Source of the DNA: a virus
Direction: 5' to 3' (one strand)
Length of the DNA stretch: 23,888 bases
Virus record (IMG/VR): IMGVR_UViG_3300048446_000878
Coordinates: 1-23,888 of that record
How positions within the stretch are numbered: the first letter of the stretch is position 1; each line of letters starts with the position of its first letter. Positions 13,752 to 23,888 of the stretch are shown here, one piece after another. A program made the position numbers and the translations under genes. The notes under the pieces are model-generated. The model ran no database searches. It was not told where the DNA came from and worked only from the letters and a program-made list of their open reading frames with translations.

Positions 13752-16310
13752 TTATTTAACGTCCGACATTTTCATATATATCTTTTCATTCATTATATTT
13801 AACGAATCAAGGAAGACTATATCTTCTCCTTTCCTTCCAAAGGCTACAACTATGCTCTTTTTAAGCGGGGTTTTATTTTTTGAATCAAAATATCTGTCAT
13901 AAAAATTCCCTCTTCTTGAATTTAAAAGCATTGCGTCGTATCTTCCAAACTCATCCGCTATTGAAAGCTTCATGTATTTATTTCCGTTTCTTGAGGTTCT
14001 TTTTATGCAATCTTCTACGACGCCTATGAATTTTCCTTTTTCATCTGAGTCCATAGCCCTTAAGTCTCTAGAATCTTTTAAAGAGTTATAACTGTCCACG
14101 AAGCAACTTTTTAGATTAGAGCTATGACTGTAGCCGAGAAGCTCTGTTTCAAAATACCAGTTGGCAAAGTCTTCGTATTCTTTATTTTTATCATAAATTG
14201 ATTTGTATACATCATACTTTTTCTTAAAGGTTTGAAATCTCGATTCCTTCATTAAGGGTTTTCCGTCGTCTCCTACTAATTCGCCTTTTTTTGCATCAGC
14301 TATACAATTTAAGAGTTTGAATTTATATTTTTCTCCAAGCAAAATAAAGTTTCTTTTCTCTCGATCTGTCAATTGATTGAACGCCTGGGCTTCTAGCACC
14401 ATAAGCGATCTGTTTGAACCTTTACTTTCAAGTGCTCCCGCTTGAATTAATGCACTTAACACTCCAATATTTAGACCTGCCTGTTTTGCAGCTAGGAATA
14501 TATCATACTTCGTTGGGGTATCGCTTGACCTAAAATCTTTAAGAGATTTTAGAGACTTTTCACTAACCCCTTTTATGCTGTTAAGCCCAAATCTTATATT
14601 TTTCCCCTCTATGGAAAAATCCATTCCAGATTTTGCGAGGTCCGGTGATAATAATTTCACACCAAACCTAGAAAGTTCTTTAGAAACTTTAGATATTTCT
14701 TCTTGAGGCGCGGGTTCATATTTTGTCATCTTTAATAGAGAAAGAAAGAATTGCTGGGGATGCTTGAACTTTAAGTGTGTCGTCCATGCAGCCAAAACCG
14801 AATAGCTGATTGAGTGAGACTTATTGAAAGAGTAATTTGCGCTATCTTCTGCAACTCTCCACAGTATGTCCCCAACTTCTTTCGGCAAATCTTTTTCTTT
14901 AACTTTGTCTTCAATTTTAGCTTTCCATTCAGGCATTTGGTCTATTTTCTTTTTTCCAACAATTCTCCTTAATTGCTCAGATTCATCAAGAGTAAATCCA
15001 ACTTTAACTGCCATTTGCATTAATTGTTCTTGATATAGCGGTATTCCTCCTGTGTATTCCAGAATATCTGTGAAAAACTCATGAATTACTTGAGCCTCTC
15101 CTGTGTCTCGGTAAGTTGAATAATCCCCAAGAAAGTCAAGAGCTCCAGGCCTTCCTATTGCAACTACAGCACTTAACTCCTCAAGGTTTCTTGGTTTTAC
15201 TTTTTTGCAAACCCTAAAGTTTGTATCAGATTCCAACTGAAATAATCCGTGTGGCGCGGTCAGGGATTGAAGCGGCTCATATATTTTTTCGTCACTTAAA
15301 TCTATATCTGAGCAATTAATATTTAAACTCTTGCACACATCATAAATAACACTCAATGTTCTTAAGCCAAGAATATCAAACTTAACCATTAGCTCTGAAA
15401 CCCAATTCATATCGTAGCCAGTAACTAAAGCTCCATCATTGGAAGTTTGGATTGGGCATATGTCTGTAATTTTATCAAAACAAATCGCTATTCCGCTTGG
15501 ATGAACTCCAGTGTTTTTATTTAAACCTTCGAGCTTCAAGGCTATGTTGAAAACTTCCGCGTTGCTTGAAGACCAGTCAACAAATTTTTCACTTTCTTCT
15601 AGGGCTGATTTTAGCGGAACCACGACTCCAAATTTCTTAGGAATAGTATTGCTTATTTCGTTAACTTCTTGTTCTGAGAATTCTCCCACGATTTTACCGC
15701 ATTCTTTTATGCATAATTTACCACTTAAGGTATTTAAGGTTAAAATTTTAGCTGTTCTCCCTGGATGCTTTTGTTCTATGTAGTTTATAACCTCGGCTCG
15801 GCGCTCATAGGCGATATCATTATCTACGTCTGCCAAAAGGCTTCCGTCTAGATATGTAATTCCATCTTTATTTATTTTTCTCGCCCTGCTCTTAGAGACA
15901 AACCTCTCGAAGAATAGATTATATTTTACGGGGTCAACATTTGTAACTCCAATTAAATACAAAACCAGAGAGCCCGCAGCACTCCCTCTTCCTGGGCCTG
16001 TTGGAATGTCATTTTCGTGACAATAATTTAATATGTCCCAGTTTAAAAGAATATAATCTATAAAACCAAGCTCTTCCAGGATACTTAGCTCTTGTTTTGC
16101 TCTCTCAAAGTAATCCTGCTTGTTCTCTAGTGAGTCGATTCCTCGGTCATATACGCCCTTGTGACAGAGTTTCCTTAAGAAGTCGAAGTTTGATATGTCT
16201 GGGCTTGCGTCCAGCATTTTATAGTACTTTTTTTCGATCTTAATATTTGGTAGTCTGACTCCAGGAGGAGTACAGTCTTCATAGTGTGAAAATTTCTCTG
16301 TAAAATTCAT
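13752..16310 (-). CDS. dnaE: DNA polymerase III alpha, polymerase part (no PHP domain)
   Basis: The 852-residue protein covers palm, thumb, fingers and OB fold of DnaE. The N-terminus (GVRLPNI) corresponds to the segment that follows the PHP domain in E. coli alpha. GPGRGSAAGS is at 105-114. The catalytic Asp pair is DVD (161-163) and the third Asp is in KFDILGLRTL (Asp312). IPLYQEQLMQMA (423-434) and SFNKSHSISYSVLAAW (494-509) are fingers motifs, and an OB fold occupies about 720-830 (SRNGNKYMKLSIADEFGRYDA). These are DnaE, not PolC, signatures. The ATG at 16310 overlaps the exonuclease stop as TAATG, with GGGAG upstream; an in-frame ATG at 16328 is less likely. The PHP domain is encoded separately, two genes upstream. 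Confidence 0.93.
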   Translation of the reverse strand: MNFTEKFSHYEDCTPPGVRLPNIKIEKKYYKMLDASPDISNFDFLRKLCHKGVYDRGIDSLENKQDYFERAKQELSILEELGFIDYILLNWDILNYCHENDIPTGPGRGSAAGSLVLYLIGVTNVDPVKYNLFFERFVSKSRARKINKDGITYLDGSLLADVDNDIAYERRAEVINYIEQKHPGRTAKILTLNTLSGKLCIKECGKIVGEFSEQEVNEISNTIPKKFGVVVPLKSALEESEKFVDWSSSNAEVFNIALKLEGLNKNTGVHPSGIAICFDKITDICPIQTSNDGALVTGYDMNWVSELMVKFDILGLRTLSVIYDVCKSLNINCSDIDLSDEKIYEPLQSLTAPHGLFQLESDTNFRVCKKVKPRNLEELSAVVAIGRPGALDFLGDYSTYRDTGEAQVIHEFFTDILEYTGGIPLYQEQLMQMAVKVGFTLDESEQLRRIVGKKKIDQMPEWKAKIEDKVKEKDLPKEVGDILWRVAEDSANYSFNKSHSISYSVLAAWTTHLKFKHPQQFFLSLLKMTKYEPAPQEEISKVSKELSRFGVKLLSPDLAKSGMDFSIEGKNIRFGLNSIKGVSEKSLKSLKDFRSSDTPTKYDIFLAAKQAGLNIGVLSALIQAGALESKGSNRSLMVLEAQAFNQLTDREKRNFILLGEKYKFKLLNCIADAKKGELVGDDGKPLMKESRFQTFKKKYDVYKSIYDKNKEYEDFANWYFETELLGYSHSSNLKSCFVDSYNSLKDSRDLRAMDSDEKGKFIGVVEDCIKRTSRNGNKYMKLSIADEFGRYDAMLLNSRRGNFYDRYFDSKNKTPLKKSIVVAFGRKGEDIVFLDSLNIMNEKIYMKMSDVK

Positions 16311-16954
16311 TATACTTCTATCTCCCATATCATTTTTTTAAAAACTTCGAAGTTGACTTTTATGTCGTAAAGTGCGTCATGCAGCTTACTTTCGTCAAAA
16401 TCTATATCAAAATCCTTGCAGCACTGTTTTAAATTGCAGGACAATCCTCTTTCTATTAAGTGATTTAATCTATATTGCCAAGCTAAAAAATCATCGTCTT
16501 TATCAAACCTTATTCTTTTCTTTAAGGCTTTTGCTAAACACAAAGTATCTACTAGGTTTTCTGTATAACTAAAGTCGGGCTTTAATTTTGGATTAATAAG
16601 CTTTCTGTGAATGTTGTGCATGTAGACATCAAAGCCAAGCAAGTTGTGGCCGATTTTCAAGTATGAGTCATCATACAAATATTTCTCTAAGTGATCCAAG
16701 GCTTTTTTTGGGCAAGAAGCTTTTTTGCTGTACTTTGCTTTTGTGAACCCCGTGATTTTTGCTGCTTCTGGAGAGACGTTAAGCTCGTCCCATTTTAGCC
16801 AATAATCTTTTGACTCTACAACTTTATTGTCCTCTATAACTAAGAAGGCTAGTTGCCAAGGCTTATTGTGAGAAACGAGATTGAGATTGCATGTCTCGTA
16901 ATCAAATAATAAGTATTTTTTATTTTTTTGAAATCTAAGTAGTGATTCTTTCAT
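16310..16954 (-). CDS. dnaQ: DEDDh 3'-5' exonuclease (DnaQ-like proofreading subunit)
   Basis: This 214-residue protein carries all DEDDh motifs: FDYETCN (Asp18, Glu20), IGHNLLGFD (Asp109) and LHDALYDI (His192, Asp197). The layout is that of the epsilon proofreading subunit, about the usual length of the catalytic domain, with no long C-terminal clamp-binding tail. It would remove misinserted nucleotides for the phage polymerase. The ATG at 16954 overlaps the PHP gene stop as ATGA, with a GGAAAG site upstream; a longer TTG-started frame from 16981 is possible but unneeded. The stop overlaps the polymerase ATG. Placement between the two halves of DnaE is unusual. Confidence 0.9.
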   Translation of the reverse strand: MKESLLRFQKNKKYLLFDYETCNLNLVSHNKPWQLAFLVIEDNKVVESKDYWLKWDELNVSPEAAKITGFTKAKYSKKASCPKKALDHLEKYLYDDSYLKIGHNLLGFDVYMHNIHRKLINPKLKPDFSYTENLVDTLCLAKALKKRIRFDKDDDFLAWQYRLNHLIERGLSCNLKQCCKDFDIDFDESKLHDALYDIKVNFEVFKKMIWEIEV

Positions 16955-17709
16955 TTTGATTCTTTCCAGCTTTGAAAGCAAAATTCACTGCTTCCAAAGT
17001 GGTCTAAGTTTGGTTTTGATAATGTTTTGTTTCCGAAAGTTCTGCCTGTTATGCACTTGTATGTCTGGAGGGCGGCTGAGTCTGATCTATTTTTGTAATA
17101 AATGCTTTTTGTCAGTTCTGTTTTTATTTTTTTCTTATAGGCATACTCTCTTACTTTTTTAGATATAAAATCATCGAAAGGCAGACCATTGTCTTCAATG
17201 AAGAAAGTTGGCTCGCAGAAAGAAAAATTTGGAGTACAGCTTGAAAATTTCATTAAGTTGTTAAATATAAAGCTATCGTAAAAAGGTATAGCTAATAGCA
17301 AGTCTTTATTGCTCCAGTGTTTTTTTAAAATTTTATCGTCTACGCATTTGTGATTTTTCGTAAATGCTTCACTTGAAATTGCGTTTAGCAGCTTGCACCC
17401 TTTTGAAGTTTTTGCGAAGATGATAATTTTATGAACAGTCTTGACCGACTCTTCCTTTGGGTCTATTGATGCATCTTCTCTCATGTCTATTCTTAATCCA
17501 AAGATTAGCTTTAAGCTTAAATTCTCCGCATTTTTTTTAGCCTGCAGAAACCCTGTTAAGGAGTCTTCTACTAGAACAACTTCTTTTAGAGAATTTTCTT
17601 TGGTTATAGAGAAGATGCTGTCGCTTCCACCCTCTTTATCTTTGTCTGGACTGTCTAGGGTTAAGATGCTTTTTCCTATAGAAAAATGACTTTTGAATAA
17701 TGGTATCAT
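16951..17709 (-). CDS. Degenerate PHP domain of DNA polymerase III alpha, separate protein
   Basis: This 252-residue protein can be followed along the E. coli alpha PHP domain: IPLFKSHFSIGKSIL (opening motif), VVLVEDSLTGFLQAKKNA (the TDH...G...F motif), LKLIFGLRIDM (the KPI-G-E motif), VHKIIIFAKTSKGCKLLNAIS (the LLA-x-N-x-x-G-Y-x-N-L motif), SDSAALQTYKCITGRTF (the D-A-H-x-x-x-x-I motif) and a last FGSSEFCF. Most metal-binding His/Asp/Glu positions are replaced, so phosphatase or nuclease activity is not expected; a structural role that docks the exonuclease is inferred. The start is set at 17709 because a sigma-70 promoter ends 8 bases before this ATG; a longer frame to 17781 would run through the promoter. 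The stop overlaps the exonuclease ATG. Confidence 0.75.
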   Translation of the reverse strand: MIPLFKSHFSIGKSILTLDSPDKDKEGGSDSIFSITKENSLKEVVLVEDSLTGFLQAKKNAENLSLKLIFGLRIDMREDASIDPKEESVKTVHKIIIFAKTSKGCKLLNAISSEAFTKNHKCVDDKILKKHWSNKDLLLAIPFYDSFIFNNLMKFSSCTPNFSFCEPTFFIEDNGLPFDDFISKKVREYAYKKKIKTELTKSIYYKNRSDSAALQTYKCITGRTFGNKTLSKPNLDHFGSSEFCFQSWKESK

Positions 17710-17716
17710 GCTTACT

Positions 17717-17745
17717 ATTTTAGCAAAAAAAGTGAGACTTGTCAA
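17717..17745 (-). promoter_or_regulatory. Sigma-70 promoter of the PHP-exo-pol-clp operon
   Basis: On the minus strand, TTGACA (17745-17740), a 17-base spacer and TAAAAT (17722-17717) lie 7 bases before the ATG at 17709. Transcription should begin at about the A of the ATG, so the message would be leaderless. No Shine-Dalgarno sequence is seen. The promoter lies between the DUF1501 stop and the PHP start and allows separate control of the replication genes. Confidence 0.85.
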
Positions 17746-17781
17746 GGCAAATTTCTCTGTCGAGAGAGCCTTTAACCGCAA

Positions 17782-19080
17782 TTAATTAAGTATGTCTAGC
17801 AGTGGGGTTCCGTCATGAGCTACTTTAAACGGTCTTCCCGACGGAGATGTTTGTATTTGCTCTAAAGGGAGTCCCATCGCATAGGCTATCGTTGCGTTTA
17901 AAGAAGCGGGGTCGATGAATTTGCCTTCTTTAGGGTTTCTTCCTAATTCGTCCATTTCTCCATAAGAGAAGCCCCCTTTTACCCCTCCCCCAGCAAGAAA
18001 AGCTGTGAATCCGTACGGCCAGTGATCTCTTCCATTGCGAGGATTGATTTTTGGAGTTCTTCCAAATTCCGAAGTAAGAACTACCATTGTTTCTTTTAGT
18101 AGCCCCCTCATTTCTAAGTCGATAAGCAATGCGCTGAGAGCTTTATCCATATCTGCACAATTATCAGAAACAACTTCAAAATTATTGTCGTGAGTGTCCC
18201 ACCCTCCTCTACTTACCTCTACATAACGAACCTGGTTCTCGATCAACCTCCTGGCGAGTAAGCAGCCTTGTCCAAAATTTGTTTTTCCATAAAGCTCATG
18301 CATGGAATCTGGCTCCAATCCTATATCGAAAGCCTTAAGGTCTTCACTTTTCATTAGTTTTATTGCGTCTTGATACAAATCTGAATAAGCCCTGACCTGT
18401 TTCTGGTTGTATTGACTTAAGTATGATGCATTCATTTTCTGGGCTAAAGCAAGCCTTCCTCCGAACCTAGATTGATCTAGATAGCTTGCAATTTTACTAT
18501 TTGCAAGTCCTGCAGATGGATTACCAATAGGTAAAGGTCCATACTTTGATTCAAGAAAGCCCGCTCCGGCGGGGTTAGCTCCAATTTGGACATTAGATGG
18601 AATCGTGCTATTAATATTCCCGGAAAGCTTAGATACCCAGCTTCCGAAAGTTGGGTGAGCGATCGTTCCCCTTTTAAGATAGCTTGTGTGCATTAAATAG
18701 CTAGCTTGCTCGTGAGCTCCTTGACTGGACATCATGGTTTTTATTACTGAAGCGTTATGCATGAGCTTTGCTGTTAACGGAAGATTCTCCGAGAGAATAA
18801 TTCCATCTGCAGAAGTAGATATTGACCTTGTTGGACCTTGTATTTCAGGCGCGCCAGGATTAGTTCCAAAAGTGTCTAGGTGTGACATTGCTCCCGTCAT
18901 ATTTAGGTAGATTACGTAACGAGCAGAAGCGACGCGAGTCCCGGTTTCTAGCCCGGCAGCTTCTTGGTGGATATACCCGCCAACCATTGGTAGAAGACCT
19001 ACTCCAAGACAAGCTTTCGCTGCACTAGCCGCAAACTCTCTTCGGCTTAATTCATTTAATTTTTTAAGGTCTGACTTCAT
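17782..19080 (-). CDS. DUF1501 family protein, Tat-exported
   Basis: This 432-residue protein has a twin-arginine signal: SRREF at 12-16, then a hydrophobic stretch (17-36) and an AA-containing cleavage area. The mature part shows family hallmarks: LNMTGAMSHLDTFGTNP (N-terminal metal-site region, GGPSHLDTF in most relatives), GAHEQASYLMH, GGWDTHDNNF, and TSEFGRTPKIN followed by GRDHWP. The family is sulfatase/alkaline-phosphatase-like in fold and common in Planctomycetota, Verrucomicrobiota and Lentisphaerota; the activity is not well known. Being exported folded, it would act in the host periplasm or at the cell surface, perhaps altering envelope glycans or sulfated polymers (inference). It lies 6 bases after nrdB and should be co-transcribed with it. 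The length is normal, with no sign of decay. Confidence 0.88.
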   Translation of the reverse strand: MKSDLKKLNELSRREFAASAAKACLGVGLLPMVGGYIHQEAAGLETGTRVASARYVIYLNMTGAMSHLDTFGTNPGAPEIQGPTRSISTSADGIILSENLPLTAKLMHNASVIKTMMSSQGAHEQASYLMHTSYLKRGTIAHPTFGSWVSKLSGNINSTIPSNVQIGANPAGAGFLESKYGPLPIGNPSAGLANSKIASYLDQSRFGGRLALAQKMNASYLSQYNQKQVRAYSDLYQDAIKLMKSEDLKAFDIGLEPDSMHELYGKTNFGQGCLLARRLIENQVRYVEVSRGGWDTHDNNFEVVSDNCADMDKALSALLIDLEMRGLLKETMVVLTSEFGRTPKINPRNGRDHWPYGFTAFLAGGGVKGGFSYGEMDELGRNPKEGKFIDPASLNATIAYAMGLPLEQIQTSPSGRPFKVAHDGTPLLDILN

Positions 19081-19086
19081 TGAGGC

Positions 19087-20100
19087 TCAAAAGTCGTCTT
19101 CGAGGGAGCCGCTTTGTTGATATTCTCTAACTCTTCTTTCAAAGAAGTTTCCCATCGCTTGAACATCTACCACTTCACCCAACCAGGGAAACGGGTTTTT
19201 ATCGCTTGGAAACCTGTAATCTAATCCTATAGCTTCAAGTCTTCTATTGCCTATATAATGCATGTAATCCACAAACATTTCCGCATTAAGCCCTAATATG
19301 CCAGTCGGCAAAACGTCGTGAGCGTAAGCTATTTCTAGTTCTACAGCTTTTTTCATATGCTCAACGAACTCGTTTTGCATTTTTTTTGTCCATATCCCTG
19401 GCTCCTGATCTATAATAGTATTAATTAAGTAGGTTCCGAATGCAATATGAGAGCTTTCGTCCCTTAATGTATACTTTATTTGATCAGAGATTCCTTGAAG
19501 CTTATTTTGTCTTCCTAGGGCAAGAAGCATTGCGAAGCCGCTAAAAAAGAAAGTTCCCTCGCAGACTATCCAATATGTTAAAAAATTTCTTAATATTTCT
19601 TGCTTTCCTTTTACGGAGTTTGCGTCAAAGTCCTGAGAGCCGATATCATTCGTTATCTGCATTAAAAAGTCATCTTTAGCTTTTATGCTCGGAATTGTCT
19701 CGTATGCGTTAAAAACTTCTTCAATATCTAAATCTAAGCTATCGCATACGTAAACTACCGTAAGATTGTGAAGGCTTTCTTCAAAAGCTTGCCTAAGTAT
19801 ATACTGACGGCATTCAGCGTCCGTAACGTAGCGAAAGGCAGATAGCAAAAGATTATTACCAACCAGAGACTCAGATCCAGCAAAAAACCCAAGGCAGCGT
19901 TTAACAAGAAGTTTTTCATCGTCTGTAATTTCATTGTTTTTCCATTGTTTGATGTCGTTTTGCATTGAGATTTCTGTGGGCATCCAGTTGTTTGCGCAAC
20001 TTTTTAAAAATAAATCCCAAGCATATTTATGCTTATGCGGAAGTATTCTATTTACGCCCGCTATATTTTTGGTTAAAAGTTTTCCTGTTTTATTTTCCAT
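19087..20100 (-). CDS. nrdB: Ribonucleotide reductase small subunit, class Ic-like (no radical Tyr)
   Basis: This 337-residue beta subunit generates the radical or oxidant used by NrdA. Metal ligands are in place: Glu77 (SESLVGNN), Glu108 and His111 (EESLHNL), Glu181 (CEGTFF), Glu215 and His218 (RDESSH). The position four residues after His111, where class Ia enzymes carry the radical Tyr, is Val115, and the first ligand is Glu, not Asp. Both traits are those of class Ic enzymes such as that of Chlamydia, which use a Mn/Fe centre. The C-terminus (REYQQSGSL, then acidic DDF) has the conserved Tyr for radical transfer and the tail that docks on NrdA. A promoter places transcription start at the ATG, so the message should be leaderless. 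Confidence 0.92.
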   Translation of the reverse strand: MENKTGKLLTKNIAGVNRILPHKHKYAWDLFLKSCANNWMPTEISMQNDIKQWKNNEITDDEKLLVKRCLGFFAGSESLVGNNLLLSAFRYVTDAECRQYILRQAFEESLHNLTVVYVCDSLDLDIEEVFNAYETIPSIKAKDDFLMQITNDIGSQDFDANSVKGKQEILRNFLTYWIVCEGTFFFSGFAMLLALGRQNKLQGISDQIKYTLRDESSHIAFGTYLINTIIDQEPGIWTKKMQNEFVEHMKKAVELEIAYAHDVLPTGILGLNAEMFVDYMHYIGNRRLEAIGLDYRFPSDKNPFPWLGEVVDVQAMGNFFERRVREYQQSGSLEDDF

Positions 20101-20106
20101 AATTAT

Positions 20107-20135
20107 AGTATATCATAGTAATATATCGAAGTCAA
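20107..20135 (-). promoter_or_regulatory. Sigma-70 promoter of nrdB-DUF1501
   Basis: On the minus strand, TTGACT (20135-20130), a 17-base spacer and TATACT (20112-20107) are followed after only 6 bases by the nrdB ATG at 20100. The transcript would begin at or next to the ATG. It sits in the 51-bp gap after nrdA, so nrdB need not be read from the nrdA promoter. Confidence 0.85.
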
Positions 20136-20151: not shown

Positions 20152-22611
20152 TTATTGACAACTCTCGCAAGACCCTCCGTTCTTTAAGGCTTCGATGCTG
20201 CACGCAGAAGCTTCTGATTCGCTTCCCGAATCTCCTGTTGATTTTTCAACTTTTGACGCAGCTCGATTTCTAAGGTAGTAAGTCGTTTTTAGTCCGGCTT
20301 CCCAACAGGCCATATATATATCATTTAAATACTTCAAAGATGTTCCTTTATTGTACAAATTAAAACTTATAGCTTGGTCAATCCATTTTTGCCTGACTGA
20401 GTTGCAATCTATCAACTTGAACATATCTCTATCGAAAGCTGTTTTATACTTTAGTTTTATCCACTCAGGTATCTCTCCGTTCAGTGAAGATAAATCTCCA
20501 TCGGAGTCTTTGACTAGTTTTGCATTGATAGGATTCCATAAACCTTCTTTTTTCATGTCGTTTATAAAATGTTGATTGGTAATATAAAAATTACCACTCT
20601 TATTCTCGTAAACAAACAGTACGGAGAAATTAGGCTCTATGCTTTGCTCGACTCCATTAATATAACCTATTGTTGCTGTAGGAGCGATAGCCATAACATT
20701 TGAGTTTCTCATCCCAAATTCATTTACATGAATTCTCACTTTTGGCCACTCTTTAAGGGTTTGACCTTTTCCTGTTAAAGGTTTACCCGTAACCGATTCA
20801 CTCGGAACTTTTTGCTTGCCCCTATAAACCATGAGGTTGTTATAAGAATCAATTGGAAATACTCCTTGACTCCAGAGCGAACCTTCGTAGGTTTTATATT
20901 GACCTCTCTCTTCAGCTAATAAAGAACTAGCATAAATCGCATGCATAGAATAAAACTCAAATAATTTATCATTAAACTCTGCAGCTTCGTCGCTATCTAT
21001 GTTTATATTAACTTTGTGAAGTACATCGTGAAGAGCCATCATACCTAACCCAATAGGACGATGTCTTAAATTGCTATTTTCTGCCTCTTTTGTTGGGTAA
21101 AAGTTAAGGTCTACGACATTATCTAAAGCTCTGATTGCTGTGTGAATGGTTTTTTCCAGCTTTATGTAATCAATATTTGTTTCGTCTTCGTTAATATGAT
21201 TTAGCAGATTTACAGAGCCAAGGTTGCACACGGCTGTTTCTCCAATTTCTGTTTTATACCCTTTGTCGTACTTTGAAGCTTTTGTGTGAAGTGTGATTTC
21301 TGTGCACAAATTACTACTATGAACTACTCCTTCATGCTGGTTTGTGTATCTCATATTGCACGGATCCTTAAATGTACTCCATGGGTGAGAGGTTTCAAAC
21401 AAAACTTTGAGCATTTTTTTCCAAAGCTCTTTTGCGGGAGTAACTCGGTAATTTTTAATTAAACCTTTTTCTGCTTGGTCACAAAGTTTGTTGTACTTTC
21501 TGTCGAACTCAGTGCCAAAGCAATCGTGTAAATCAGCTTCTTTTGGGTCAAAAAAATACCAAACATCTTCATTCTGAACCCTTCTCATGAATTCATCTGG
21601 AATCCACGAGGCGGTATTCATGTCGTGACATCTTAACCTGTCGTCTCCTGTATTCCTGCGAAGATTTAAAAAATCTTCAAAATCTAAATGCCAGGGCTCT
21701 AGGTATGCGCATCCTGCCCCTGGTCGCTTGCCTCCCTGATTGACAGCTACTAGTAAATCATTGTAAATTTTTAACCAAGGAATTAAGCCTCCAGATATTC
21801 CATTTGTGCCTTTAATGGGCGAGCCTGCAGACCTAAACGGGGTTACGTCAAAACCAAGGCCTCCAGCGTACTTGCTTTTCCGGGCTTCCTGCCATGCTCC
21901 ATCAAAAATTCCATCAATACTATCGTCAAAAGTGTTTAGGTAGCAAGAGCTTAATTGAGAATGAGTTGTTCCGCTATTAAATAAAGTTGGGGTAGAGGAT
22001 GTATACAAGAACTGGCTGAACAGATCATAAAACTTAATCGCCCATTCTTCTTTGTTTTTTTCATTGATTGATAATCCCATAGCAACCCTCATCCAGAAAC
22101 ATTGCGGAGCTTCCATTATTTTATCGTCATGCCTAATGAAATACCTGTCAGATAAAATCTGAATGCCTAAATATTTAAAATCTTCATCTCTTCTTATTTT
22201 TATTGCTTCTGATAGCTTTTCGAGATCAAAGTCTAGCATTTTTGGATTAAGCTTTTCTAGTTTTACTAATTTTTTTATATTTTGTATGAAGCTTTTCCTG
22301 TATTGCAGTTTAAATGTGTCTGAGTCTACTCCTTCTTTGAATACTTCTTTGTATACAGTATTTAACAATAGTCTCGCTGCTACAAAACTGTAATTTGGTT
22401 CTTTTTCAATCTTCTCTCTCGCTGAAAGAATTAAGGCCGTGTCTATTTCACTGGTTGTTATTTTGTCAAACAACTGTAATTGTGCGTCGAGAAGAACTTC
22501 GCTAACAGAGGCATCTTCTATTCCTTTGCAGGCTCGCTCCACGTTTGCGTTAATTTTTTCTACCAAAAAGTCCTGAAGTCTGCCGTTTCGTTTTTTTACT
22601 TTTATATTCAT
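20152..22611 (-). CDS. nrdA: Ribonucleotide reductase large subunit, class I
   Basis: This 819-residue catalytic alpha subunit reduces ribonucleotides to deoxyribonucleotides. One ATP-cone occupies about 1-95 (KVKKRNGRLQDFLVEKI at the start), giving overall dATP control. The active site has Cys223 (SSCYLNTF) and Cys462 (AVCNLGS) as the redox pair and NLCTE (Asn434, Cys436, Glu438) with the thiyl Cys. The radical-transfer Tyr pair is in LKTTYYLRN. The C-terminus ends GGSCESCQ, the swinging Cys pair reduced by thioredoxin or glutaredoxin. All key residues are present. The gene precedes nrdB by 51 bp and has its own promoter. Phages often carry it to supply dNTPs from host ribonucleotides. Confidence 0.96.
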   Translation of the reverse strand: MNIKVKKRNGRLQDFLVEKINANVERACKGIEDASVSEVLLDAQLQLFDKITTSEIDTALILSAREKIEKEPNYSFVAARLLLNTVYKEVFKEGVDSDTFKLQYRKSFIQNIKKLVKLEKLNPKMLDFDLEKLSEAIKIRRDEDFKYLGIQILSDRYFIRHDDKIMEAPQCFWMRVAMGLSINEKNKEEWAIKFYDLFSQFLYTSSTPTLFNSGTTHSQLSSCYLNTFDDSIDGIFDGAWQEARKSKYAGGLGFDVTPFRSAGSPIKGTNGISGGLIPWLKIYNDLLVAVNQGGKRPGAGCAYLEPWHLDFEDFLNLRRNTGDDRLRCHDMNTASWIPDEFMRRVQNEDVWYFFDPKEADLHDCFGTEFDRKYNKLCDQAEKGLIKNYRVTPAKELWKKMLKVLFETSHPWSTFKDPCNMRYTNQHEGVVHSSNLCTEITLHTKASKYDKGYKTEIGETAVCNLGSVNLLNHINEDETNIDYIKLEKTIHTAIRALDNVVDLNFYPTKEAENSNLRHRPIGLGMMALHDVLHKVNINIDSDEAAEFNDKLFEFYSMHAIYASSLLAEERGQYKTYEGSLWSQGVFPIDSYNNLMVYRGKQKVPSESVTGKPLTGKGQTLKEWPKVRIHVNEFGMRNSNVMAIAPTATIGYINGVEQSIEPNFSVLFVYENKSGNFYITNQHFINDMKKEGLWNPINAKLVKDSDGDLSSLNGEIPEWIKLKYKTAFDRDMFKLIDCNSVRQKWIDQAISFNLYNKGTSLKYLNDIYMACWEAGLKTTYYLRNRAASKVEKSTGDSGSESEASACSIEALKNGGSCESCQ

Positions 22612-22624
22612 ATTTATGACAACT

Positions 22625-22653
22625 ATATTATCATTTTTTTGTTAATCTGTCAA
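22625..22653 (-). promoter_or_regulatory. Sigma-70 promoter of nrdA
   Basis: On the minus strand, TTGACA (22653-22648), a 17-base spacer and TAATAT (22630-22625) precede the ATG at 22611 by 13 bases. The predicted leader is about 6 bases, too short for a Shine-Dalgarno site, and none is seen. Confidence 0.85.
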
Positions 22654-22686: not shown

Positions 22687-23888
22687 TTATCTTAAGCTAT
22701 CTTGCTTTTCTCCGTTGTAGCGTTTTAAGTCTAGCCCGATTTTTTGAGAAGCATTTATAATGAGATTCATATAATAAGCTGGATCCCCTTCTGAATTAAC
22801 GTGATATTCATCGCTGAAGACGATCCCGTCTCGGTTGCGAATATTGTCGCTATTTTCTTGCCAATAGTATGGCTTTAAGTTTTCACCCGCTCCAGATAAA
22901 TATCCATCACCTCTCCAAGCATTCTCAACAAATTCCTTAAATGATTTAGCGAATGTCTTACCACGGTCTACTTGGAACATAATTCCTCTGTAAAGTCCGC
23001 CGTATCCATTTAAACCTTCCTTAAGGTCTTTCAAGTCATCCATGTAGTGATCTTCTGGTTTGCGATTGAAATTAGGAAGGTGATAGGCAGGTTGAGCTTC
23101 ATCTTGAAATACGAGAGCTAGCACATTTTCTTTCTTTGTCGCGTCTGCAAAGAATTTAAGAGTTCTCTCTCCTTTTCCGTCGACGATCAATACCCTCCTG
23201 TTGTAAAGATCTTCGTCATTTTTGTAGTAGGGAAGTAGGGCATTTTTAAGAAGAGTATCTTTCATTTCTCCCAATGCTTTTCTTGTGCTTAAAATTGAGC
23301 CACTTCCGTCTACATGCATCATGATATAAAGATTGCCGTCTTTTGGTAAGTGGTCGTAGTTTGCCTCGTTATAGCTACTTCCTGTTCCTGCGCCATAACC
23401 TATATCACCAACTTTAGTTATCGGGAGAGAAGCTCTAGCTGAAGACAAGCCTGCCGCTGCCCCCGCTCCAGCTCCACCGACTAAGCCTGCAACACCTCCA
23501 GCAACTCCGGGAGCAACCATAATGACTGAGCCGGAAGTATTCTTTGGGGAACTTCCACTTTCAGTCGGCGTAGAATATGTCCCTATTCCACCAAGTGCAG
23601 GAACTGCTTGACCGTCCATAACCGCTTGTCCAATACCGGCTCCAAGTCCGGCAAATCCAGCGGCAGCACCAACTGCAGGACTACCTATACCTGCACCAAC
23701 ACCTTGTGAAGGGAAATTGTAAGCATAAACCTCAGCTCCCTTGCCGACTCCAGGCATTGTACCTTTTCCAAAACCAGCTCCATCTTTATCAAAATCTCCT
23801 ACAGCACCAAGCTCATCATCATCAAAATCGCCACGACGGCCATCTGGAACAAAATTTCCTACATTTACATTGTCATTTCCGCCTCGAC
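22687..23888 (-). CDS. vWA-domain protein with Gly/Ala-rich linkers (partial)
   Basis: The frame is open through the window end, so the true start lies outside; an internal ATG at 23757 is not needed as a start. About 399 C-terminal residues are visible. The visible N-terminal part is acidic and Gly-rich (GDFDDDELGAVGDFDKDG). Two Gly/Ala/Val-rich stretches follow, around 23645-23700 and 23440-23520. A von Willebrand A domain begins near 23330 with a complete MIDAS start, HVDGSGSI (D-x-S-x-S), followed by a Rossmann-like strand and helix pattern (RRVLIVDG, NVLALVFQDE). vWA domains bind protein or glycan partners through a metal ion. Tail-fibre, adhesin or intracellular binding roles are all possible. 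It lies upstream of nrdA on the same strand. Confidence 0.7.
   Translation of the reverse strand, partial: RGGNDNVNVGNFVPDGRRGDFDDDELGAVGDFDKDGAGFGKGTMPGVGKGAEVYAYNFPSQGVGAGIGSPAVGAAAGFAGLGAGIGQAVMDGQAVPALGGIGTYSTPTESGSSPKNTSGSVIMVAPGVAGGVAGLVGGAGAGAAAGLSSARASLPITKVGDIGYGAGTGSSYNEANYDHLPKDGNLYIMMHVDGSGSILSTRKALGEMKDTLLKNALLPYYKNDEDLYNRRVLIVDGKGERTLKFFADATKKENVLALVFQDEAQPAYHLPNFNRKPEDHYMDDLKDLKEGLNGYGGLYRGIMFQVDRGKTFAKSFKEFVENAWRGDGYLSGAGENLKPYYWQENSDNIRNRDGIVFSDEYHVNSEGDPAYYMNLIINASQKIGLDLKRYNGEKQDSLR

Follow-up and report, generated by a model that had tools for sequence, protein, structure and literature searches.

A host-derived DUF1501 gene linked to ribonucleotide reductase genes in an uncultured phage lineage with probable Opitutia hosts

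The DUF1501 gene and its phage neighbourhood

The sequence examined (the window) is a whole virus record of 23,888 bases. Positions 17782..19080 of its minus strand encode a DUF1501 protein of 432 aa with a Tat-type N-terminus, whose model matches the fold of the alkaline phosphatase (AP) superfamily. The sequence-only reading had this interval right, and the strand is minus: the forward reading of the interval is filled with stops and the intact frame lies solely on the minus strand. The protein covers positions 2-390 of the 390 positions of the Pfam DUF1501 profile (PF07394) with a score of 347.7 bits (cut-off 27; E = 1.2e-103). NCBIfam gave no match for this protein or for the PSCyt2-PSD1 proteins described below.

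A spacer of 6 bp separates the start of the gene from the stop codon of nrdB (ribonucleotide reductase small chain, 19087..20100; PF00268, Ribonuc_red_sm, 1.8e-76; phrog_86), which itself follows nrdA (large chain, 20152..22611; PF02867, 1e-169), both on the minus strand. Downstream and on the same strand lie the genes encoding (i) the PHP-domain part of phage DNA polymerase III (16951..17709; phrog_405, 3.9e-10; start inferred as the ATG after the promoter, homologs being 252-255 aa long), (ii) the polymerase exonuclease subunit (16310..16981; PF00929, 3.3e-11; phrog_192), and (iii) the DnaE-like polymerase alpha (13752..16328; PF07733, 2.5e-62; phrog_405, 5e-160), together with a Clp-type ATPase gene. 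In this part of the window (13752-17781), DNA polymerase III is thus encoded by three distinct ORFs (PHP, exonuclease and alpha). Pfam matches and ORFs confirm the earlier description of a full-length DUF1501 protein with a twin arginine, encoded behind phage nrdB and ahead of polymerase genes. The other half of the window carries, on the opposite strand, a packaging/head module with a terminase and a cement-like protein. A Gly/Ala-rich, vWA-like protein (DGSGS) of the c58 family, encoded at 22687..23886 on the minus strand, runs off the contig and has neither a Pfam nor a PHROG match; this family recurs beside PSD1 or a second DUF1501 gene in L002, L005, L167, L200, L218, L321, L327 and L328.

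A search for a strict extended -10 motif (TTGAC[AT]-N14-TGN-[TA]ANNNT) found 41 sites against 1.4 expected in 16 contigs; since these contigs are related, the 41 matches are not independent events. The window alone has three such sites (0.1 expected), none of them in the head region. They precede nrdA (22625..22653, TTGACA-17-TAATAT with TG, site at 22653), nrdB (20107..20135, a sigma70-type TTGACT-17-TATACT with TG, site at 20135) and the PHP gene (17717..17745, TTGACA-17-TAAAAT with TG, site at 17745), all on the minus strand, and promoter position and spacing are kept in relatives. A scan with a loose consensus performed no better than chance. Judging from these motifs, DUF1501 belongs to a transcription unit that begins with nrdB and lies between two conserved host-type promoters. 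The early expression previously proposed for the gene is supported by this conserved early-type unit, although the timing is a prediction. The -10 boxes end 6-7 nt ahead of the start codons of nrdB and of the PHP gene, a spacing also kept in relatives that would give nearly leaderless early transcripts.

Conserved motifs and predicted fold

The N-terminus of the window protein, LNELSRREFAASAAKACLGVGLLPMVGG, contains an RR motif (SRREF) followed by a moderately hydrophobic stretch. This Tat-type signal region (residues 1-45, RR at 13-14) corresponds to 18946..19080 on the minus strand, and R13-R14 are invariant in the alignment (33/33 phage and 80/80 cellular homologs). The sequence-only reading had proposed export through the Tat pathway: the signal motif is indeed conserved in phage and cell homologs, and Tat-dependent export of the window protein is predicted from it.

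The motifs of the DUF1501 family (H123, WDxH, EFGRTP and GRDH) are all found in the window protein, on the minus strand. H123, within GAHEQA (18703..18720), is present in 33/33 phage and 80/80 cellular sequences and may occupy the position of the CxPSR nucleophile of sulfatases. The WDTH motif (18190..18201) provides two putative metal ligands, D295 (33/33 phage, 80/80 cell) and H297 (33/33 phage, 76/80 cell), and the GRDH motif (18022..18033) two others, D352 and H353, the latter being found in 80/80 cellular and 32 phage rows, with one further phage row gapped. Between them, a weak sequence match to sulfatases aligns SEFGRTP (18052..18072, E338) with their SDHG metal motif; EFGRTP is present in 80/80 cellular and 32 phage rows, one phage row being gapped. 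Overall, H123, D295, E338, R341 and H353 are invariant, and H297 and D352 nearly so.

The AlphaFold model of the window protein (mean pLDDT 69, pTM 0.78) matches structures of the alkaline phosphatase superfamily, with Z scores of 17.9 for PafA and ENPP6 and about 16 for sulfatases. A sequence search of solved structures gave weak sulfatase matches only (E 0.31 or worse). The D295, H297, E338, D352 and H353 residues are conserved but the canonical nucleophile position is not, and the model falls below a pLDDT of 50 in the two stretches (residues 119-142 and 341-353) that are expected to hold the active site. Furthermore, the protein sequence lacks the C-x-P/A-S-R formylglycine motif, which rules out a canonical sulfatase. 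The earlier qualification of the protein as sulfatase-like therefore holds for the superfamily, by its fold, but sulfatase activity should not be assumed, since the CxPSR motif is missing. From the model, a hydrolase role is likely; the lack of this motif and the poor modelling of the active-site loops keep it a prediction. In the literature searched, we found no DUF1501 protein with a known activity.

Viral relatives, partner gene and donor lineage

A scan of viral contigs revealed 34 others that encode a DUF1501 protein with 61-86% identity to that of the window; all score above the family cut-off, and their frames are free of internal stops. The order nrdA-nrdB-(PSD)-DUF1501-php-exo-dnaE of the window is found again in L002-L008 and L034. 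A PSD gene lies between nrdB and DUF1501 in L002-L008, and L002 and L005 have extra inserts before php; L034 repeats the exact window order nrdB-DUF1501-php, with a gap of 8 bp and no PSD gene. In many other contigs, DUF1501 is located near nrdB. A check suggested by the sequence-only reading, to look for DUF1501 beside nrdB or polymerase genes in other viral contigs, was thus positive. The pairwise dN/dS of DUF1501 is 0.015-0.038, nrdB having values of 0.000-0.024 and the partner gene of 0.04-0.08; this indicates that DUF1501 is maintained by selection. The gene has no match in 50,697 catalogued phages (tblastn) or in the PHROG families, and the literature on DUF1501 in phages yielded only a weak database match of 61 aa in a Pseudomonas phage.

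A PSCyt2-PSD1 gene precedes DUF1501 in 22 of the 35 loci, the window being counted among them. Its product is about 714-808 aa long (a fragment in L009) and contains the domains PSCyt2 (DUF1549, E = 2.3e-44) and PSD1 (DUF1553, 1.1e-29); the two genes overlap or are separated by a few to about 400 bases. Each phage PSCyt2 copy examined has a single CxxCH, and PSCyt2/PSD1 is therefore predicted to be a heme protein. The same neighbour is found beside DUF1501 in cellular genomes. In the window, no PSCyt2-PSD1 gene adjoins DUF1501, which directly follows nrdB, and the partner is also missing from L034 and other viral contigs. Conversely, PSCyt2 was found without DUF1501 solely in L163 and L167, in which the gene lies at the very end of the contig, so that DUF1501 appears as the retained part of the pair. 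DUF1800, which accompanies DUF1501 in other bacteria, is absent from all 34 viral records. The AlphaFold model of PSD1 has a pLDDT of only 40 and is unusable; therefore, we make no claim about its fold. PSD1 proteins carry a Cys-rich TRASH/YHS-like insert (L009:14-613, L013:7712-9979 and L066:4198-6729), which is doubled in host copies and missing from the L002 copy.

The best cellular matches belong to Opitutia (Verrucomicrobiota), with 83% identity for L066 and 72% for L067. Their flanks are ordinary chromosome and the gene lies in an operon PSCyt2/PSD1 - DUF1501 - PSCyt1; cysteine desulfurase, sulfatase or multiheme cytochrome genes, for example, are found near host operons. In one marine Opitutia family, 36 of 42 genomes carry the ortholog (63-85% identity, compared to at most 51% for the next paralog); the genomes of this family in which DUF1501 genes were counted have 10-26 of them. 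None of the genomes outside this family passed 1e-140 among 286 sampled from the class. The phylogeny against cellular DUF1501 proteins, also called for by the sequence-only reading, confirmed its claim of a host origin and identified this one Verrucomicrobiota family as the donor, the phage copies being nested among its orthologs.

Forcing the 30 main phage copies into a single clade was rejected (AU test, p-AU 3.3e-11), and in the fuller tree the phage copies are interspersed with host copies. The group of the window clusters with hosts L266-L271 (enclosing group 99*), phage L255 lies inside a different host group (100*), and a group of 16 phages has four other host genes as its neighbours (95*). 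Nine changes of the phage label are required on this tree, at least six of them forced by starred branches. The tree of the partner gene agrees, the PSD1 of the window group joining L066 (100*). These trees are most simply explained by three or more independent captures of the same host operon. A transfer in the opposite direction, from phage to host, is less likely, given that the three-gene operon is intact around the host copies wherever flanks are readable. GC3 is uninformative on recent transfer, because the DUF1501 gene (0.353) resembles both nrdB (0.352) and its closest host orthologs. No phage terL was found in the 42 genomes of the host family, a result that is uninformative on a physical host link; the gene phylogeny makes this Opitutia family the probable host.

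Besides these orthologs, the same phage lineage carries a more distant DUF1501 clade (52-54%; L250-L254 and L256-L259) and a third kind (31-35%; second copy of L002 and L260-L262). A broader scan identified 243 viral contigs with DUF1501, some short ones being possibly cellular DNA; the earlier statement that the family is nearly always chromosomal needs to be amended, since hundreds of viral contigs carry it. Among 50 further relatives of the polymerase, 13 have DUF1501 and nine have PSCyt2 over the cut-off, while 37, many of which are fragments, show no DUF1501. This patchy distribution points to an accessory gene. Of 78 loci read, 14 carry at least two DUF1501 copies, and five other large phage contigs (L352, L354, L355, L357 and L360) each contain a tandem array of three or four distinct copies. 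These arrays (Pfam-confirmed for L357) adjoin polymerase (polymerase III), PhoH or UvsX-like genes; in L335, DUF1501 adjoins the portal and maturation protease genes. Among full-length copies, WDxH and GR[DN]H are present in 99/99 and an RR near the N-terminus in 93/99. L359:8414-8812 is a short in-frame deletion remnant in which the start of PSD1 is fused to the end of DUF1501, both genes being whole in the related L335; therefore, loss of the pair also happens.

Possible role during infection

The origin of the gene, its intactness, the selection acting on it and its linkage to an early-type unit can be held with high confidence from the sequence comparisons. As for its function, the account that we favour, and to which we give roughly even credence, is that of a host-derived, early-expressed and Tat-exported auxiliary hydrolase that supplements the host copy during infection. 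The sequences show that phages of one large, uncultured marine lineage captured the Opitutia PSCyt2/PSD1-DUF1501 operon at least three times and that DUF1501 has since remained under strong purifying selection; several lineages, including that of the window, are without the PSD1 partner. The gene would be transcribed together with nrdB from the early-type promoter and its product exported folded through the host Tat pathway. In the periplasm, the protein may be a metal-dependent AP-superfamily hydrolase whose substrate is a carbohydrate or an envelope component esterified with phosphate or sulfate, and it may work with a PSCyt2/PSD1 protein encoded by the phage or the host. It would thereby supplement or replace the host DUF1501 and sustain the flow of nutrients or energy during infection.

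A role in surface remodelling is possible but unlikely: after export, the protein would modify glycans of the envelope, or mask a receptor or take its place, and thereby prevent the adsorption of competing phages (superinfection exclusion) or the trapping of progeny at release. The retention of the export motif is consistent with it, as are the nucleotide-sugar epimerase (Epimerase/GDP_Man_Dehyd), Gcw_chp and c58 vWA-like genes that recur nearby, and the several DUF1501 subfamilies found within one phage would suit varied surface targets. However, PSCyt2/PSD1, a predicted heme protein with a single CxxCH, would be odd in an exclusion device, no receptor is known, and the epimerases are not always adjacent.

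We give still less weight to a redox or stress-energy module in which DUF1501 would be accessory to the cytochrome-like PSCyt2/PSD1, the pair sustaining periplasmic oxidation during infection. It would explain the CxxCH of all examined phage PSCyt2 copies and would fit with the continuation of the host operon by a PSCyt1 cytochrome gene and with the PSD1/PSC2 gene of R. baltica, which is stress-induced and has a suggested redox function (PMC2754498). However, many phages have DUF1501 without PSCyt2, the converse being seen only at contig ends, and the PSCyt1 gene was not taken into the adjacent phage slot.

That the gene is a passive hitchhiker, i.e. chance host cargo of no benefit, is very improbable. 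The patchy distribution and the decayed remnant of L359 would fit with such cargo, but it is strongly disfavoured by the selection data derived from the sequences: a dN/dS near that of nrdB, WDxH and GR[DN]H motifs intact in every full-length copy, and the repeated capture of the same ortholog out of the 10-26 paralogs per related host genome. Lastly, an assembly chimera or cellular contamination, which a single metagenomic contig and a closest cellular match of 85% identity might suggest and which the sequence-only reading had named as a way to refute its claim, has a negligible probability, since dozens of independent contigs carry the gene in this phage context (34 other viral contigs for the relatives above), with a phage-specific loss of the partner and a divergence from the host of at least 15%; a chimera is thus excluded.

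The auxiliary hydrolase that we favour can be compared with four kinds of known systems. Compared to chromosomal DUF1501 (PF07394) of Verrucomicrobiota and Planctomycetota, the window protein has the same full-length domain, RR and invariant residues, and its phage relatives share the PSCyt2-PSD1 partner order. By contrast, the window copy has no partner and lies in a phage nrdB unit under an early-type promoter conserved in phages, and the downstream PSCyt1 gene is not carried beside the phage copy. The planctomycete-specific cytochrome modules PSCyt2-PSD1 and PSCyt1 were described from cells (PMC5615132); in the literature searched, they are known solely from cells and no paper joins PSCyt and virus, whereas the phage relatives have PSCyt2-PSD1 directly before DUF1501. 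Relative to alkaline phosphatases, NPPs and S1 sulfatases, the predicted fold and metal-ligand-like residues would be shared, but DUF1501 lacks the FGly CxPSR and has a histidine at the putative nucleophile position.

Phage auxiliary metabolic genes include, for example, the photosystem and phosphate genes of cyanophages. Like them, the DUF1501 gene is host-derived, repeatedly captured, linked to nucleotide metabolism and under purifying selection; unlike them, it belongs to a host pathway that is uncharacterised and its product has an export signal, paralogs of several classes are used by the same phage group, and some phages have three or four copies in a row. This gene is a host-derived auxiliary phage gene, and what is new is the repeated capture and the stacking by uncultured phages of an uncharacterised system of PVC bacteria. 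The sequence-only reading was right about the origin, and its proposals on export and timing are plausible, but it had recognised neither the PSCyt2-PSD1 partner nor the repeated captures and the DUF1501 arrays.

DUF1501 and PSCyt/PSD1 proteins are uncharacterised in spite of tens of copies per PVC genome. Their repeated capture, the strong selection, the placement in a nucleotide-gene unit and the stacking in some phages show that the system is important to the physiology of infected cells, and the phage copies are compact natural versions for assay. Furthermore, a large lineage of uncultured phages is given a probable host family, and a common class of auxiliary genes is revealed that is missing from phage family databases and catalogued phages. 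Tentatively, DUF1501 (with PSCyt2/PSD1) might even be a general point of conflict between large phages and PVC bacteria: surface or energy factors that decide the outcome of infection would be among the chromosomal paralogs, and phages would override, mask or replace them by re-acquiring specific paralogs, up to four at once; we consider this wider idea rather doubtful.

Other genes were observed around the nrd-DUF1501 region of the relatives. On its upstream side, genes for nucleotide-sugar epimerases and Gcw_chp proteins are found repeatedly (L007:523-1584 and L002:3237-3884), and a subtilase gene with a long Pro-Glu repeat adjoins nrdB (L013:12391-13662). A TnpB/Cas12f-like gene (L002:1099-2547) and an HNH endonuclease gene (L010:8128-8721) are located near the nrd-DUF1501 region, which suggests a mobile hot spot.
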